The notes under the pieces are model-generated. The model searched no databases. It was not told the DNA's origin and saw nothing but the letters and a program-made list of their open reading frames with translations. A stretch of DNA of 25,851 nt from a virus: IMG/VR virus record IMGVR_UViG_3300044733_003957, positions 1 to 25,851 of that record; one strand, given 5' to 3'. The position numbers were made by a program, and so were the translations under genes. Of this stretch, positions 3,021 through 25,851 are shown piece after piece (positions within the stretch are counted from its first letter, which is position 1; the number at the start of each line of letters is the position of its first letter).

Positions 3021-4073
3021 TTATGTCGTGTAATTTGTCAGGCTTGAACCGCGCCAGCGGCTGCCTCCGTCATCAGTAATAAAAGAAACCAAGTGGGTGC
3101 GCCCTGTGATTAAAGTCGGCGCTGTGCCCCCAGGCCATTGTACGTTGCCGAACCAAGTTACGTTTCCAGAGGTGACTGTTAATTCAATTGTGAATGCATA
3201 GCTTCTTCCAGAGACTGGGACATTGCTAACTGTGAAAGTGCTATTGCTTGTAATTGTTTTTGTATAATAGTTTCCGCTGCTGCAATCAATATTTAATGCG
3301 GCTACTGCGGACACATTTTGAACATAAATTCCATTTAGATCTAAAAAGGAATTAACACCAGTAATTGTACTAACAGCTGTCTGCCCAATTCCAATTCCTT
3401 TGCTATAAACACCGCTTACAAAATTTGCCGTTGCGCCTGAAGTAGTGGTCCCTGTAAGCGTAGTAAAACCTGCTCCATTTCCTGTAAGTGTTGTAAATTG
3501 ACCTGTGTTACCTGTAACAGTAGCGCCGGAAAGAAAAGCAGTAAATGTGCCTGTGCTGACAGTAATCGTTCCAAATTGCCCCGTGGTTCCGGTAACAAAT
3601 GAAAGTACGCCACTTACGCCGGTAATGTTTGTAAATTGACCGGTATTACCCGTGATCAACAAACCAGAAAGTGTAGATGTGAAAACACCTGTACCACCGG
3701 TTAATGTTGTGAATTGTGCCGTATTTCCGGTTACTGTTGCGCCAGAAATATGTGTTGTGAACGTGCCAGAAACTCCAGTTGCGTTAGAAATTAATAGCGT
3801 ATCTCCTGTTACGGTGTTTCCAGAAAGTCGGCTTGTAAATGTTCCCGATACCCCGGTAATATTTGTAAATTGAACAGTATTACCAGTGATTAAATTACCA
3901 GATATTGTGCTTGTGCTATTAACATCAATAAAATTTGCGATCTGGCCGGAGACGTTTCCGGTGTAAGTAGTGCTTCCTGTTGTCGCTTCTGCTAAACCAG
4001 AAACAGTAATTGAATAATCTGTTCCGCCCCTGGTAAAGATAATACGATCAATTTTTAAAGAACCGTACGGCAT
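3021..4073 (-). CDS. Tail fibre protein with repeat shaft and cyanophage-type C-terminal domain
   Basis: 350 aa. The N-terminus (MPYGSLKIDRIIFTRGGTDY, residues 1-27) is similar in pattern to the start of the fibre at 1-1058. Residues about 30-225 are a shaft of near-regular repeats (SGxTVTGNTxQFTxLTGxxGxFT). The C-terminal domain from about 240 ends with a conserved-looking core (YAFTIELTVTSGNVTWFGNV, then QWPGGTAPTLITGRTHLVSF and DDGGSRWRGSSL) of a type I know from marine cyanophage structural proteins. The role would be host recognition at the tail or capsid surface. It lies 9 nt downstream of the 188-aa fibre gene. Homology to cyanophage proteins is from recall, not a search. Confidence 0.85.
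   Translation of the reverse strand: MPYGSLKIDRIIFTRGGTDYSITVSGLAEATTGSTTYTGNVSGQIANFIDVNSTSTISGNLITGNTVQFTNITGVSGTFTSRLSGNTVTGDTLLISNATGVSGTFTTHISGATVTGNTAQFTTLTGGTGVFTSTLSGLLITGNTGQFTNITGVSGVLSFVTGTTGQFGTITVSTGTFTAFLSGATVTGNTGQFTTLTGNGAGFTTLTGTTTSGATANFVSGVYSKGIGIGQTAVSTITGVNSFLDLNGIYVQNVSAVAALNIDCSSGNYYTKTITSNSTFTVSNVPVSGRSYAFTIELTVTSGNVTWFGNVQWPGGTAPTLITGRTHLVSFITDDGGSRWRGSSLTNYTT
3420..3960. repeat. Degenerate tandem coding repeats of the second fibre shaft
   Basis: This is an array of imperfect repeats of roughly 45-75 nt encoding the TGNTGQFTTLTG-type shaft of the 350-aa fibre. Units differ by several bases, so the array looks old and amino-acid-constrained rather than a recent slippage product. 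Confidence 0.65.
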
Positions 4074-4082
4074 TGTACTAAA

Positions 4083-4649
4083 TTATGGCAGAATAATAAA
4101 CGGTCCTTTAACAATAATACCCGACACACCTCCAGAAATTAAACCGGAGACGTTGATTGCTACTCCTGATCCAGAGGGAAGAGTGACTGTTAATGTGCTT
4201 CCCGTAATATCAGTGAATTGCGCCGTTTGTCCTGTAAATGTTTGGCCTGAAACAGTGCCTGTTACATTGATTCCGGAACTAAAATAACCGGAACCAAGCG
4301 TTCTTGTGTCTCCGGAAAAAATATTATTTCCAGAGTAAAGAACGTTGGTTGCCTGGAAAGTTGTGAAGTAACCACTGACTCCACTGATAATTGTTCCGGA
4401 TAAATTTGAAAAAGTGCCAGAAACGCTATTGATTAGTTGGCCGCTTTGGATTGTAATGGGGCCTGTAATTACGCCGCCGGTATAAGGAAGGTACTTGGTT
4501 TCTAAATAATTATTAAATTCTTCTAAAGTAATCTTCTTATTTTTTAAAGTCGGATCAACCTCAAAGACTTTTACCAAAGTCAGAAGATCCTGCTCTGATA
4601 AATCTGCTCCCAAAATTGAGGGCAGCTCTGTAATTCGTCTATTTGCCAC
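4083..4649 (-). CDS. Short tail-fibre/virion protein with cyanophage-type N-terminus
   Basis: 188 aa from a GTG start at 4649 (MANRRITELPSI...). Residues 1-50 (ITELPSILGADLSEQDLLTL, DPTLKNKKITLEEF) form an N-terminal module that recurs at the head of cyanophage tail-fibre genes. It is followed by YLPYTGGVITGPITI, a typical fibre transition, and then a Gly/Ser/Thr-rich shaft with one TGQTAQFTDITG repeat. It ends abruptly in KGPFIILP, with no globular tip, so it may be a proximal fibre segment or a short fibre carrying the proteins encoded just downstream. The gene leads the fibre cluster. No clear SD is present; a TATAAT hexamer lies at 4673-4678 on this strand, without a convincing -35. Confidence 0.75.
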   Translation of the reverse strand: MANRRITELPSILGADLSEQDLLTLVKVFEVDPTLKNKKITLEEFNNYLETKYLPYTGGVITGPITIQSGQLINSVSGTFSNLSGTIISGVSGYFTTFQATNVLYSGNNIFSGDTRTLGSGYFSSGINVTGTVSGQTFTGQTAQFTDITGSTLTVTLPSGSGVAINVSGLISGGVSGIIVKGPFIILP

Positions 4650-22246: not shown

Positions 22247-23410
22247 TCAGACAGTACCGTCGTCCTGAATAAAGCTATAAGCAGTGGTAACAAAATCCTT
22301 GTTCAGGATTTCAAAACCGGCGTACAGTTGCCAAATCAGAATGATGAAACGGCTGAAATCATCGTTATTATTAATCAGCACTTGAGCATTGGGGCCACCA
22401 ATACCAACGCCGATAGCCTGAGGGCCGAAGAAGTAACCCTGAGCAACTTCCTTGGCGGAGTAGCTGGAACCGTTGTCAAAAGAAGCGGTAATGTTCTTAG
22501 TCGGGAAGTTGGTCGACTCGAAGAACTTCACGCCTTCAAACTGAACACCGGTCGGCATGACGGGCTCACCGGCAAGGAAATAACCTTGGCCAGCTTGGGG
22601 ACCCATGTAGAACGATGCGTTGTTAGGCATCGCAGGGTTGCCCATATACATGCCCTGACCAGGATTGCCAGCGTAGCGGGCAATTTCACGGAAGTCAGGA
22701 TCACGACGCAGGTGCATCATGAAGGTAGGATCGCAAATGCAGCGATACAGACCATCAGCATAGGTCGGCACGTTGCGCTTACGCAGGTCCTTCACAATGG
22801 TCAGCAGGTCGGTACGAACCTGGAACTGCTGAACTTCATTGCCATACTCAGTGCTGTCGTACTTAATACGCCCGGACGAGTCTTTGGTTTTGGCACCAGG
22901 GAAATAATAACCGCCTTGAGTGGTCGAGGCAGCACCATTAGCTTCGGCTTTGGCAAGTTCGTCAATGAAGACGCGGTCACGCCAACGGCGATAGTCGTCA
23001 AGCAGCGTCAGGCTACCGATCGACTGGTGGAACATATTCAAGTTACCGGTATCCAGCAAGAGACGCTGGGCGGTAATCAGAGTTTCACGAGCAATCTTGA
23101 AAGTGCTGGGCTGGGTCGGATCGCCCGGGTCAGCAGGACCGGTGTACTCCTTCAGAACAACAAGCACCTTCTCTTTGGTGATGTTGCGGCTGTTGGCGGT
23201 ACCGATGGTCTGGTCAGCCACACGCTCGCGGCTGTCCTTAGTACCAGGGCTACCCCAGAACTTGTAGCGATCAAGCTGAACAGTTTGACCAGGCTGACGG
23301 GTGAAGTCGTGGACAACCACAGGCTCCACGGCCATTTCAGCAATATAACCAGGGTGGGGACGGTAAAGTTCCGCACCTAAGATCTTTGGGAAATCGTTAT
23401 CAAGAAACAC
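22247..23410 (-). CDS. Major capsid protein (HK97-fold type)
   Basis: 387 aa from a GTG at 23410, with a perfect GGAGG at 23421-23425 (10-nt spacing). The start (MFLDNDFPKILGAELYRPHP), the central ETLITAQRLLLDTGNLNMFH, CDPTFMMHLRRDPDFREIAR and the C-terminal SRFIILIWQLYAGFEILNKD have the features of an HK97-like major capsid protein of aquatic phages. Position after portal and scaffold fits. It would form the icosahedral shell. No N-terminal delta domain or protease cleavage site is obvious, in line with a separate scaffold. The gene is visibly more GC-rich at third codon positions than its neighbours, as expected for a very highly expressed gene. Confidence 0.85.
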   Translation of the reverse strand: MFLDNDFPKILGAELYRPHPGYIAEMAVEPVVVHDFTRQPGQTVQLDRYKFWGSPGTKDSRERVADQTIGTANSRNITKEKVLVVLKEYTGPADPGDPTQPSTFKIARETLITAQRLLLDTGNLNMFHQSIGSLTLLDDYRRWRDRVFIDELAKAEANGAASTTQGGYYFPGAKTKDSSGRIKYDSTEYGNEVQQFQVRTDLLTIVKDLRKRNVPTYADGLYRCICDPTFMMHLRRDPDFREIARYAGNPGQGMYMGNPAMPNNASFYMGPQAGQGYFLAGEPVMPTGVQFEGVKFFESTNFPTKNITASFDNGSSYSAKEVAQGYFFGPQAIGVGIGGPNAQVLINNNDDFSRFIILIWQLYAGFEILNKDFVTTAYSFIQDDGTV

Positions 23411-23524
23411 TTTCTTTTATCCTCCAATTTCGCAGGAAATGTGTTTTTTATCGGGTGAAAGATTCAGACAAAATGTCTTATCTAACACAAATTTTAGCAG
23501 TTGGTAATTTATACAAATTACTTA
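23411..23524 (-). promoter_or_regulatory. Leader region of the major capsid gene with inverted repeats
   Basis: This 114-nt gap carries the SD of the capsid gene, an AT-rich perfect 7-bp inverted repeat (23504-23510/23515-23521) just after the scaffold stop, and a 5-bp one (23466-23470/23474-23478). A TATAAATT lies within the first repeat on the minus strand. No T-tract terminator and no clear -35/-10 pair is seen; it may hold a late promoter or an mRNA processing signal. Confidence 0.4.
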
Positions 23525-24502
23525 TCATTCCATGACAAATAATTTACTTGCCACAGTGGCTGGCTGAGCGTTATTCAAAACACGCCAGGCGTTTTGAGGA
23601 TCGCGAGCCATCATTTCACTAAAGGTCCCCCAGAAGTTTTCTGGTTGTTGTTGACCTTCGGCAGCAGGAGGAGCAGGAAACTCGCTCATGTTGGTTTGAG
23701 TCGGGGCTGTGCGATAGCCAGGGGTTTCCAGTTGCCGCTCACTTTCGTAAACAGGATATGGACCTTCAGGACCAAAGAACTTCAGCGTGTAATCACTGAG
23801 TACGTCAGGATTAGTAAGAATCTCGTTATAAGCCAGATTCTCTTGATGCTCATTAACAGCAAACTGAGCGTAACGCTGAATTAAACCCTGGGCTTCAGCG
23901 CCCCACTGAACGGCGCTATCCAGCATGCCTTCCAGTTGGACGGCATAGTTATTTAGGATTGCGGGTGCTTCGATTCCGAACGCGTCCACCACCTGGCGGC
24001 TTTCCTGGCTCAGGCCGACGTAATCCGCGAGGTCCGTTAAGGATGGATTCGAGGAAGTTGGGGAAGAGCTGGGCGAGTAGGCCGGGCTGGGAGACCAAGT
24101 CTGCGTCTCCGATGGTTGCGTAGCTGGGCTGCTGGGCATTCCGTAGTTCGCCGGGCTGTAGCTGGTCGGCGCTGACGGTTGACCCTGGAATGGGGATTGG
24201 ACTGGTGCGCTCAGGAGATTCACCACCTTGTTGAACGCCGATTCCCAAGGATTGCTGTTCGGCGCTTCCGATTGGAATTGGGGGGCGTACTGCGTAGGGG
24301 CGGATTGGTAATTGGGGCTCGCCTGAGGTGTCGCTTGGGGGTAGCTGATAGCCGGTTGGTACGTTGGCGCTTGAACCGCCTGCTGATAAACCGGTGTTGG
24401 AACCGCTGTCGGAGCCGGTGCTGCCACCACGTAGCTGCTGGGAGCTACTGCTGTAGGTGCTTGGCTCGTCTGTGGGATCGATTGGACGGTAGCGTCCTGC
24501 AT
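23525..24502 (-). CDS. Putative scaffold/head assembly protein
   Basis: 325 aa from ATG 24502. The start has a strong AAGGAG (24510-24515) with 7-nt spacing. It lies inside the portal gene, so residues 1-184 are read from DNA that also encodes the portal C-terminus. Residues 1 to about 145 are Pro/Ala/Gln/Ser-rich and disordered. Residues 150-235 are helical (LTDLADYVGLSQESRQVVDA, then AVQWGAEAQGLIQRYAQFAV), followed by LKFFGPEGPYPVYESERQLE. The C-terminus (ENFWGTFSEMMARDPQNAWR, then SKLFVME) is a candidate capsid-interaction tail. Place between portal and major capsid protein and the composition suit a scaffold; no protease domain is seen. Confidence 0.75.
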   Translation of the reverse strand: MQDATVQSIPQTSQAPTAVAPSSYVVAAPAPTAVPTPVYQQAVQAPTYQPAISYPQATPQASPNYQSAPTQYAPQFQSEAPNSNPWESAFNKVVNLLSAPVQSPFQGQPSAPTSYSPANYGMPSSPATQPSETQTWSPSPAYSPSSSPTSSNPSLTDLADYVGLSQESRQVVDAFGIEAPAILNNYAVQLEGMLDSAVQWGAEAQGLIQRYAQFAVNEHQENLAYNEILTNPDVLSDYTLKFFGPEGPYPVYESERQLETPGYRTAPTQTNMSEFPAPPAAEGQQQPENFWGTFSEMMARDPQNAWRVLNNAQPATVASKLFVME

Positions 24503-25851
24503 AACTCATCTCCTTTTGTAAAGCTTCGAGAGTTCGATACAGATATGGAGTTAAATCCAGCCTGGGATCCGCAGCCATCGGTAAATCCGGTGATTGCGGG
24601 TGAGGAGTCTGCATCATGCCCCCCACTAAGCGAGCAAATTGAGAATATGCATTCTGCAATTCACCCACCATCCTGAACGGGAACCCAGATAACATCTCGG
24701 CCCGCTCCTCATCCGTTTTAGCCGGAAAGAGGTATTTCAGTGCTTCAATGCTATCAACACCTAATTCTTGTAAATTTCGAACAACAATTGAACTGTTCAA
24801 AATATCTTGCGTAGTGTCGTCGTAAACAGGTCCAGTCCAGCGCCACAAGACAGTTACGTCTCCATCGGGAATTAAACCAATAACTCCTGGTGGAATCATT
24901 TTGGTTTCAACGCAAGCCATCATTAAACGTTTGACTTGATCGTTAAACATATCCATCGCTTCTTCATATGCATTCAATTCTTCCTCAGTTGCGCCACTAA
25001 TGGGTTCGATTGGTTTTTCAAATCCTGCAATAGCCGCTAATGATTCGCGGAAAAGTTTTTCTTCCTGGAAGAGAATTAATTCCAAGCAACGACAAATACC
25101 GTAAGTGTAAATAGCAGTTGCTTTTTTGCGAGAAGTAGCAGCAACACGGCCAAATAAAGATTTGTACTCTGTTGCGGTAATACCAGCGGAAATGCCAAGT
25201 TCATCTACACCGCCAAGAGCGGTTCTAATCTCTTCCCTGTATTGTTTTGCAAACGCATTTTGATCACCCGTAATGGCATCTGGGACAATGTACCCAACTC
25301 GATCATTTGGTTCCAGGTTTGCAATTACTCGCGGAACACGGATTTGCCCGTCAACACCACGATTAATGGGGTCCGATTTAAACGTGGATCTGCTTAACGA
25401 ATTTAATCCGGTAAAACCGGAGTTTGCCGCAATGGATGGTCGCTGAACAACAGCATCGCCACCAGCTTCAATAAGATCGGTTTTTGGACGTGACGAAAGA
25501 AGTGTTGGATTACCAAAGAACTGCACGTTCTTCCGCATGGTGCGAACCATGTCATCATGAATGACGATATGGCTGGCCATGGAATCAAACTCCCCTGTCC
25601 CTTCTGTTGAAAAACCCTTAGGGTTGTTAAAGATTTCAACACAAGGAATAAAACCTAATGTGTTTTTAAAAGTTTTTGTTTTGCCGGGGACTGCATAATT
25701 TGGCATTTCAAAAGACATTTCACCTTCTGAATGCGTTTCTTCAATTGTTTTACGTTTAATCGAAAGTCGAATATAACGTTTAGAACCACGGTCTCCAAGT
25801 GTTGCAGCTCCTGTAACACTTTGGACGTTAATTGAATCGCCAAAGCCGTAG
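23949..25851 (-). CDS. Portal protein, N-terminus beyond the window edge
   Basis: The minus-strand frame is open from the right edge (about 633 residues in the window) and has no start codon before the ATG at 25718, where a shorter reading would begin. In the first 44 residues the frame reads SVTGAATLGDRGSKRYIRLS and IKRKTIEETHSEG, so the true start lies outside. Stretches such as EFDSMASHIVIHDDMVRTMR, FFGNPTLLSSRPKTDL and VTVLWRWTGPVYDDTTQDIL suit a portal protein: a 12-mer channel for DNA packaging and head-tail joining. The last about 200 residues are Ser/Gly/Pro/Gln-rich, probably disordered, end RNRSTRNPK, and are encoded in the same DNA as the scaffold N-terminus. Family assignment is by motif and position. 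Confidence 0.75.
   Translation of the reverse strand, partial: YGFGDSINVQSVTGAATLGDRGSKRYIRLSIKRKTIEETHSEGEMSFEMPNYAVPGKTKTFKNTLGFIPCVEIFNNPKGFSTEGTGEFDSMASHIVIHDDMVRTMRKNVQFFGNPTLLSSRPKTDLIEAGGDAVVQRPSIAANSGFTGLNSLSRSTFKSDPINRGVDGQIRVPRVIANLEPNDRVGYIVPDAITGDQNAFAKQYREEIRTALGGVDELGISAGITATEYKSLFGRVAATSRKKATAIYTYGICRCLELILFQEEKLFRESLAAIAGFEKPIEPISGATEEELNAYEEAMDMFNDQVKRLMMACVETKMIPPGVIGLIPDGDVTVLWRWTGPVYDDTTQDILNSSIVVRNLQELGVDSIEALKYLFPAKTDEERAEMLSGFPFRMVGELQNAYSQFARLVGGMMQTPHPQSPDLPMAADPRLDLTPYLYRTLEALQKEMSYAGRYRPIDPTDEPSTYSSSSQQLRGGSTGSDSGSNTGLSAGGSSANVPTGYQLPPSDTSGEPQLPIRPYAVRPPIPIGSAEQQSLGIGVQQGGESPERTSPIPIPGSTVSADQLQPGELRNAQQPSYATIGDADLVSQPGLLAQLFPNFLESILNGPRGLRRPEPGKPPGGGRVRNRSTRNPK
24510..24515 (-). 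promoter_or_regulatory. Strong Shine-Dalgarno of the scaffold gene inside the portal gene
   Basis: AAGGAG on the minus strand, 7 nt before ATG 24502. It decides the start of the scaffold-like gene and supports the 554-nt overlap with the portal gene. Confidence 0.7.

Follow-up and report, generated by a model that had tools for sequence, protein, structure and literature searches.

Organization of the locus

The window, by which we mean the whole stretch of DNA analysed, comprises 25,851 nucleotides (positions 1 to 25,851 of the IMG/VR record IMGVR_UViG_3300044733_003957). On its minus strand, a portal-like gene and a scaffold-like gene overlap over several hundred nucleotides, upstream of the gene for the major capsid protein:

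23949..25851, minus strand: 3' part of the portal-like gene, whose frame has no stop between the window edge (25850) and the TAA at 23951-23949
24510..24515, minus strand: Shine-Dalgarno sequence AAGGAG, within the portal coding region and separated from the scaffold ATG by a 7-nt spacer
24506..24508, minus strand: TGA stop, in frame with the scaffold ATG and two codons 5' of it
23525..24502, minus strand: scaffold-like gene of 325 amino acids, with its ATG at 24502 and its stop at 23525, between the portal and major capsid genes
23949..24502, minus strand: proposed dual-coding overlap of 554 nt, comprising the C-terminal 184 codons of the portal and the N-terminal 184 codons of the scaffold
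22247..23410, minus strand: major capsid protein gene, the next one downstream (PHROG 1357, major head protein, E 6.9e-17)

This geometry had been read in the first-pass annotation, which placed the portal stop at 23949 and the scaffold start at 24502 behind an AAGGAG, with an out-of-frame overlap of 554 nt; inspection of the sequence confirms it. The 5' end of the portal gene lies outside the window, a point missed in the first-pass annotation. The full gene has 767 codons in L002, a separate IMG/VR contig whose portal and scaffold proteins are both 100% identical to those of the window; the scaffold protein of another contig, L083, is likewise 100% identical. The shared DNA makes up about one quarter of the portal and more than half of the scaffold. 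The portal is read in the +2 frame relative to the scaffold, stops are present in the third frame, and the GC content of the overlap is 61% versus 46% in the portal core.

When codons were resampled with the scaffold amino acids held, the portal frame stayed open in 0.015% of trials. In the reverse resampling, with the portal residues held, the scaffold frame stayed open in about 5%. Openness by itself is thus stronger evidence for one frame than for the other.

Elsewhere in the window, two tail-fibre-like ORFs on the minus strand (3-1058 and 3021-4649) are built of degenerate TGNTGQFTTLTG-type repeats.

The two proteins

The structural model of the portal has a pLDDT of 43 and low TM-scores; every one of its top PDB matches in Foldseek is a phage portal (best E 1.3e-6). 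By sequence the protein falls in PHROG 20475, which is annotated as a virion structural protein only. Its gene follows that of the terminase and precedes the scaffold and capsid genes, as in the S-EIV1 gene order. Sequence searches of the PDB yielded no useful match. The scaffold-like protein matches neither a Pfam nor a PHROG family. Both in the window and in S-EIV1, its gene lies between those of the portal and the major capsid protein. In the model (pLDDT 46) the N-terminus is disordered and is followed by a long central helix and, towards the C-terminus, by further helices; the helices are predicted at residues 179-230, 290-300, 302-311 and 314-321. The name "scaffold" is therefore provisional, being based on synteny and predicted helices; more generally, the roles given here to the two proteins are those suggested by fold, synteny and helices.

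Both readings of the overlap had been described as low-complexity and disordered, and indeed they are mostly devoid of confident predicted structure. Since the overlap combines a part of the portal beyond the conserved core with the disordered half of the scaffold, the two frames can share DNA.

Conservation of the overlap among relatives

The phage collection contains one cultured relative, Synechococcus phage S-EIV1 (KJ410740). Its portal is 75% identical to that of the window and its scaffold 69.5% over the full length; the overlap is again 554 nt long and the start block is identical. The portal, scaffold and capsid genes of the window thus all have homologues in S-EIV1, arranged in matching order, at 69.5-85.5% identity. 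In IMG/VR, each query matched at least about 600 stretches. All 148 first-round loci with both genes, among the matches listed, overlap by 518-632 nt in one relative frame, and indels in the overlap region of relatives come in threes. Lineages B and C were reached via a degenerate DNA motif based on the C-terminal end of the scaffold and then expanded by two scans. An overlap of 455-662 nt in the identical relative frame was found at 461 of the 462 loci with both genes (302 in lineage A, 80 in B and 80 in C; these are loci, not independent genomes, some contigs having been fetched more than once). The sole exception, L242, lies on a contig broken by several frameshifts that affect other genes too. 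A second scan with a portal motif yielded three more divergent loci, where both ORFs overlap again.

Identity between lineages is 50-54% for the portal cores and 27-32% for the portal tails; the corresponding values are 32-42% for the part of the scaffold within the overlap and 32-47% for its unique part. Short motifs are nevertheless common to the lineages: P.pG and G..Dl..p in the portal frame and, in all three, NPW..AF in the scaffold frame. A survey of ocean viral genomes places several members of lineages B and C with S-EIV1 (PMC5332604).

Relatives in which the portal ends near 24500 had been named at the outset as the finding that would speak against an overlap. Such an ending was sought and is absent from 461 of the 462 loci. 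No relative without the overlap was recovered from the genome collection, with degenerate DNA motifs from scaffold and portal, or by walks from lineages B and C; the genome-collection search returned a single match (L155), which has the overlap. Coliphage PTXU04, found through a weak capsid match (E 0.6), was considered as an outgroup. It lacks such an overlap, but was rejected because its portal and scaffold candidates have no detectable homology to the pair. In this widespread group of viruses infecting aquatic cyanobacteria the overlap is real and old, having been retained while the portal cores diverged to about 50% identity, and current gene annotation conceals it.

Some further observations concern the neighbouring genes. 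An extra gene of about 156-158 codons lies between scaffold and capsid in L155 (7938-8408) and in S-EIV1 (KJ410740 60269-60745). It is absent from the window, where the corresponding gap (23411-23524) measures about 114 nt, and the L155 copy has no Pfam match. The terminase frame of L155 (1601-3388) contains a LAGLIDADG/Hint stretch (Pfam LAGLIDADG_3, E 2.6e-8) and probably harbours an intein. In lineage B (L251, L273, L298), the capsid gene is located about 4 kb downstream of the scaffold and not directly after it. In the S-EIV1 record (L001, L153; KJ410740 59863-62010), only the C-terminal part of the capsid protein is annotated (61540-62010), a reverse-strand ORF (60784-61545) being annotated across the rest of the gene; tblastn finds one capsid homologue at 60859-62007.

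Start signals of the scaffold-like gene

The TGA in frame just 5' of the scaffold ATG implies that the scaffold needs its own internal start and is no extension of an upstream reading. AAGGAG is invariant in lineage A. There, the portal Gln, Lys and Glu codons that coincide with it are fixed as CAA, AAG and GAG, whereas elsewhere each of these codons is used in 35-58% of cases. The block AAGGAGATGAG(T/C)TATG is found in all lineage A contexts and the block AAGGAGATGAG(T/C)TATGCAGGAC at every first-round lineage A locus. The start block is thus nearly invariant and constrained at the nucleotide level.

Predicted pairing with the anti-Shine-Dalgarno sequence is stronger at the scaffold start than at the portal start in lineage A (median -8.9 versus -4.25 kcal/mol) and in lineage B (-7.7 versus -3.3). 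In lineage C neither start is strong. At three lineage C loci (L269, L275, L296), the scaffold start retains ATG CAG GAC (MQD) without the strong Shine-Dalgarno sequence seen in A and B. A strong scaffold start combined with a weak portal start would fit the expected proportion of many scaffolds to 12 portals. As for the coupling of portal and scaffold amounts suggested in the first-pass annotation, termination-reinitiation in its usual form is not possible, since the portal stop lies about 550 nt beyond the scaffold start.

Silent diversity of the portal is reduced at the Shine-Dalgarno sequence and, less markedly, over as many as about 128 codons before the scaffold start (about 24503-24890 in the window), with a ratio of 0.43-0.64 over this stretch versus 0.76-0.80 further upstream.

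Selection on the two reading frames

All possible single-base changes were sorted according to whether they are silent in each frame, and set against the differences observed between independent sequence pairs; the implementation is our own, modelled on OLGenie (PMC7531306), with sham-frame controls. In 35 pairs from lineage A, doubly silent (SS) changes occur at 0.136 per opportunity, such opportunities being few; this is like silent changes elsewhere. Changes that are silent in the scaffold but alter the portal occur at 0.038 in the overlap versus 0.090 in the scaffold outside it. For changes that are silent in the portal but alter the scaffold, the rate is 0.019 in the overlap versus 0.106 in the portal core. 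According to the background class used, dN/dS in the scaffold frame is 0.14 (CI 0.11-0.18) or 0.26; the portal frame has values of 0.28 (0.22-0.36) or 0.49, and sham frames lie at 0.75-1.8 (about 0.7-1.8 when all lineages are considered). The analysis was repeated on larger or independent sets of distinct genes, 167 in lineage A, 68 in B and 63 in C. With 75, 20 and 26 pairs, respectively, it gave 0.19-0.27 for the scaffold and 0.28-0.52 for the portal, one interval in lineage B being wide (0.18-0.99) owing to few doubly silent sites. Stop-creating changes are rare in the overlap, but as the region is bounded by observed stops, the distribution of overlap lengths was used instead.

As judged from these substitution classes, the comparison shows purifying selection on both frames across the three lineages; the per-frame check suggested in the first-pass annotation came out in favour of both. 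Because doubly silent sites are free to change, the constraint bears on the two proteins rather than on RNA. RNA-level constraint was rejected as the main cause over the whole overlap, SS sites changing at the usual rate, although the start block is constrained as nucleotide sequence.

Distribution of constraint along the overlap

Both frames are strongly constrained over scaffold codons 1-30 and held over codons 31-115; past these the portal dominates first, then the scaffold. The rates in three segments are as follows:

24413..24502, minus strand: segment tight in both frames, encoding scaffold MQDATVQSIPQ and portal GRYRPIDPTDEP (NN 0.003, SN 0.025, NS 0.006)
24053..24157, minus strand: portal-dominated segment, scaffold codons 116-150, with the portal motif PSYATIGxADLVSQPGLLAQLFPN (portal-changing rate 0.025 versus scaffold-changing rate 0.047)
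23949..24052, minus strand: scaffold-dominated segment, from scaffold codon 151 to the portal stop (portal-changing rate 0.059 versus scaffold-changing rate 0.012)

In the last of these segments the portal tail is weakly constrained, and the portal stop shifts among relatives over six alignment positions.

Such observations might be taken to mean that the scaffold frame alone is functional and that the portal effectively ends at its core, followed by a disordered run-on that is passively tolerated. The portal tail is indeed less conserved than the scaffold in most segments, its stop moves, and it is mostly low-confidence coil in the model. Yet a passive run-on would hardly explain why scaffold-silent, portal-altering changes are reduced 2-3 fold relative to the scaffold outside the overlap in three lineages, why no portal stop occurs before 455 nt at the 461 loci, or why there are a segment in which the portal motif dominates and portal motifs common to the lineages. 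The constraint on the portal frame largely refutes this explanation, which we regard as improbable.

The converse proposal, that function in the overlap belongs to the portal frame alone, corresponds to the GenBank record of S-EIV1. There the second gene is annotated from 59863, past the portal stop; it comprises only the last 133 scaffold codons and no overlap, so that the N-terminal half of the scaffold would be spurious. Within the overlap, codon usage leans slightly towards the portal frame, a comparison confounded by frame geometry and therefore set aside in judging which frame is older, and the roughly 5% of portal-preserving trials that leave the scaffold frame open point the same way. 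Against this stand the approximately fivefold deficit of portal-silent, scaffold-altering changes, the conservation of the Shine-Dalgarno sequence, the ATG and MQDATVQSIPQ, the NPW..AF motif common to three lineages, and the matching result in lineages B and C. We consider a downstream start very improbable.

Less probable still is a programmed frameshift producing a portal-scaffold fusion, an alternative raised in the first-pass annotation. A +1 shift anywhere within the overlap would join the two frames, but a -1 shift, the common kind, enters the third frame with its about 7 stops per locus; moreover, the position of the portal stop is not fixed and the scaffold has its own conserved ribosome-binding site and start. 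Finally, metagenome contigs can carry indels, as L242 does with its several frameshifts, but a sequencing or assembly indel that artificially joined or shifted the frames, also named at first, is refuted by identical proteins on the independent contig L002 and by the same arrangement in hundreds of relatives and in cultured S-EIV1.

Proposed origin and function

With a probability of roughly 0.87, we regard the locus as a real, long, same-strand overlapping pair among the head genes of an S-EIV1-like cyanophage family, with both frames in use. Within about 455-660 nt, one frame would specify the C-terminal tail of the portal and the other the N-terminal half of the scaffold-like protein. Ribosomes reading the portal would pass straight through, and the scaffold would be initiated separately, from an internal ribosome-binding site located where the portal core ends; the strong Shine-Dalgarno sequence in lineages A and B would be consistent with a scaffold needed in far greater numbers than the portal with its 12 subunits. 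The two chains are probably tolerant and of low complexity, the constraint being partly split by segment such that each protein may retain short motifs while the other frame drifts. Both overlap-encoded segments may face the procapsid interior. As to origin, the likeliest cases are a stop loss that would have extended the portal 3' into the disordered N-terminus of the scaffold and the mirror image of this event. Overprinting, in the general sense, is likely. It has also been considered that the overlap is a genetic lock, holding a cognate portal and scaffold together against recombination in mosaic genomes, and that the portal tail and scaffold N-terminus meet in the procapsid, seating the portal at one vertex. 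We offer this as a speculation that is more probably wrong than right.

The first-pass annotation had called an overlap of hundreds of bases unusual, which agrees with the median of 15.6 nt (IQR 8.5-61) for genome mean overlap lengths in DNA viruses (PMC8903798). Overlapping genes have long been known, most of all in small viruses (PMC8227390). In phiX174 and other microviruses (E in D, K, the extension of A), long same-strand out-of-frame overlaps occur as they do here, with one frame created by overprinting; a C-terminal extension of A is among them (PMC8227390). However, these are small ssDNA phages and other genes are involved, whereas the present pair belongs to a tailed phage, in which size pressure would be weak. 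The contigs of the relatives reach about 80-95 kb. In phage lambda, the scaffold Nu3 is started at an internal site within another head gene, C, much like the internal scaffold start here; unlike here, Nu3 is in frame with C, whereas the frames of the present pair differ and the two proteins have no sequence in common. The lambda Rz/Rz1 lysis genes are a tailed-phage overlap in different frames with both proteins used, but the overlap is shorter, nested and not concerned with head morphogenesis. A limited search of open-licence papers found none describing a portal-scaffold overlap of this kind.

As the S-EIV1 record illustrates, gene callers can hide half a head protein, and where they disallow long overlaps, comparable genes elsewhere may be cut short in the same way. 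Tiny genomes are where one expects long dual-coding overlaps; in large tailed phages, which have room to spare, they are not expected among the head genes. This family of cyanophages would provide a natural test of how an overlap persists without size pressure, be it through stoichiometry, linkage or failure to escape.
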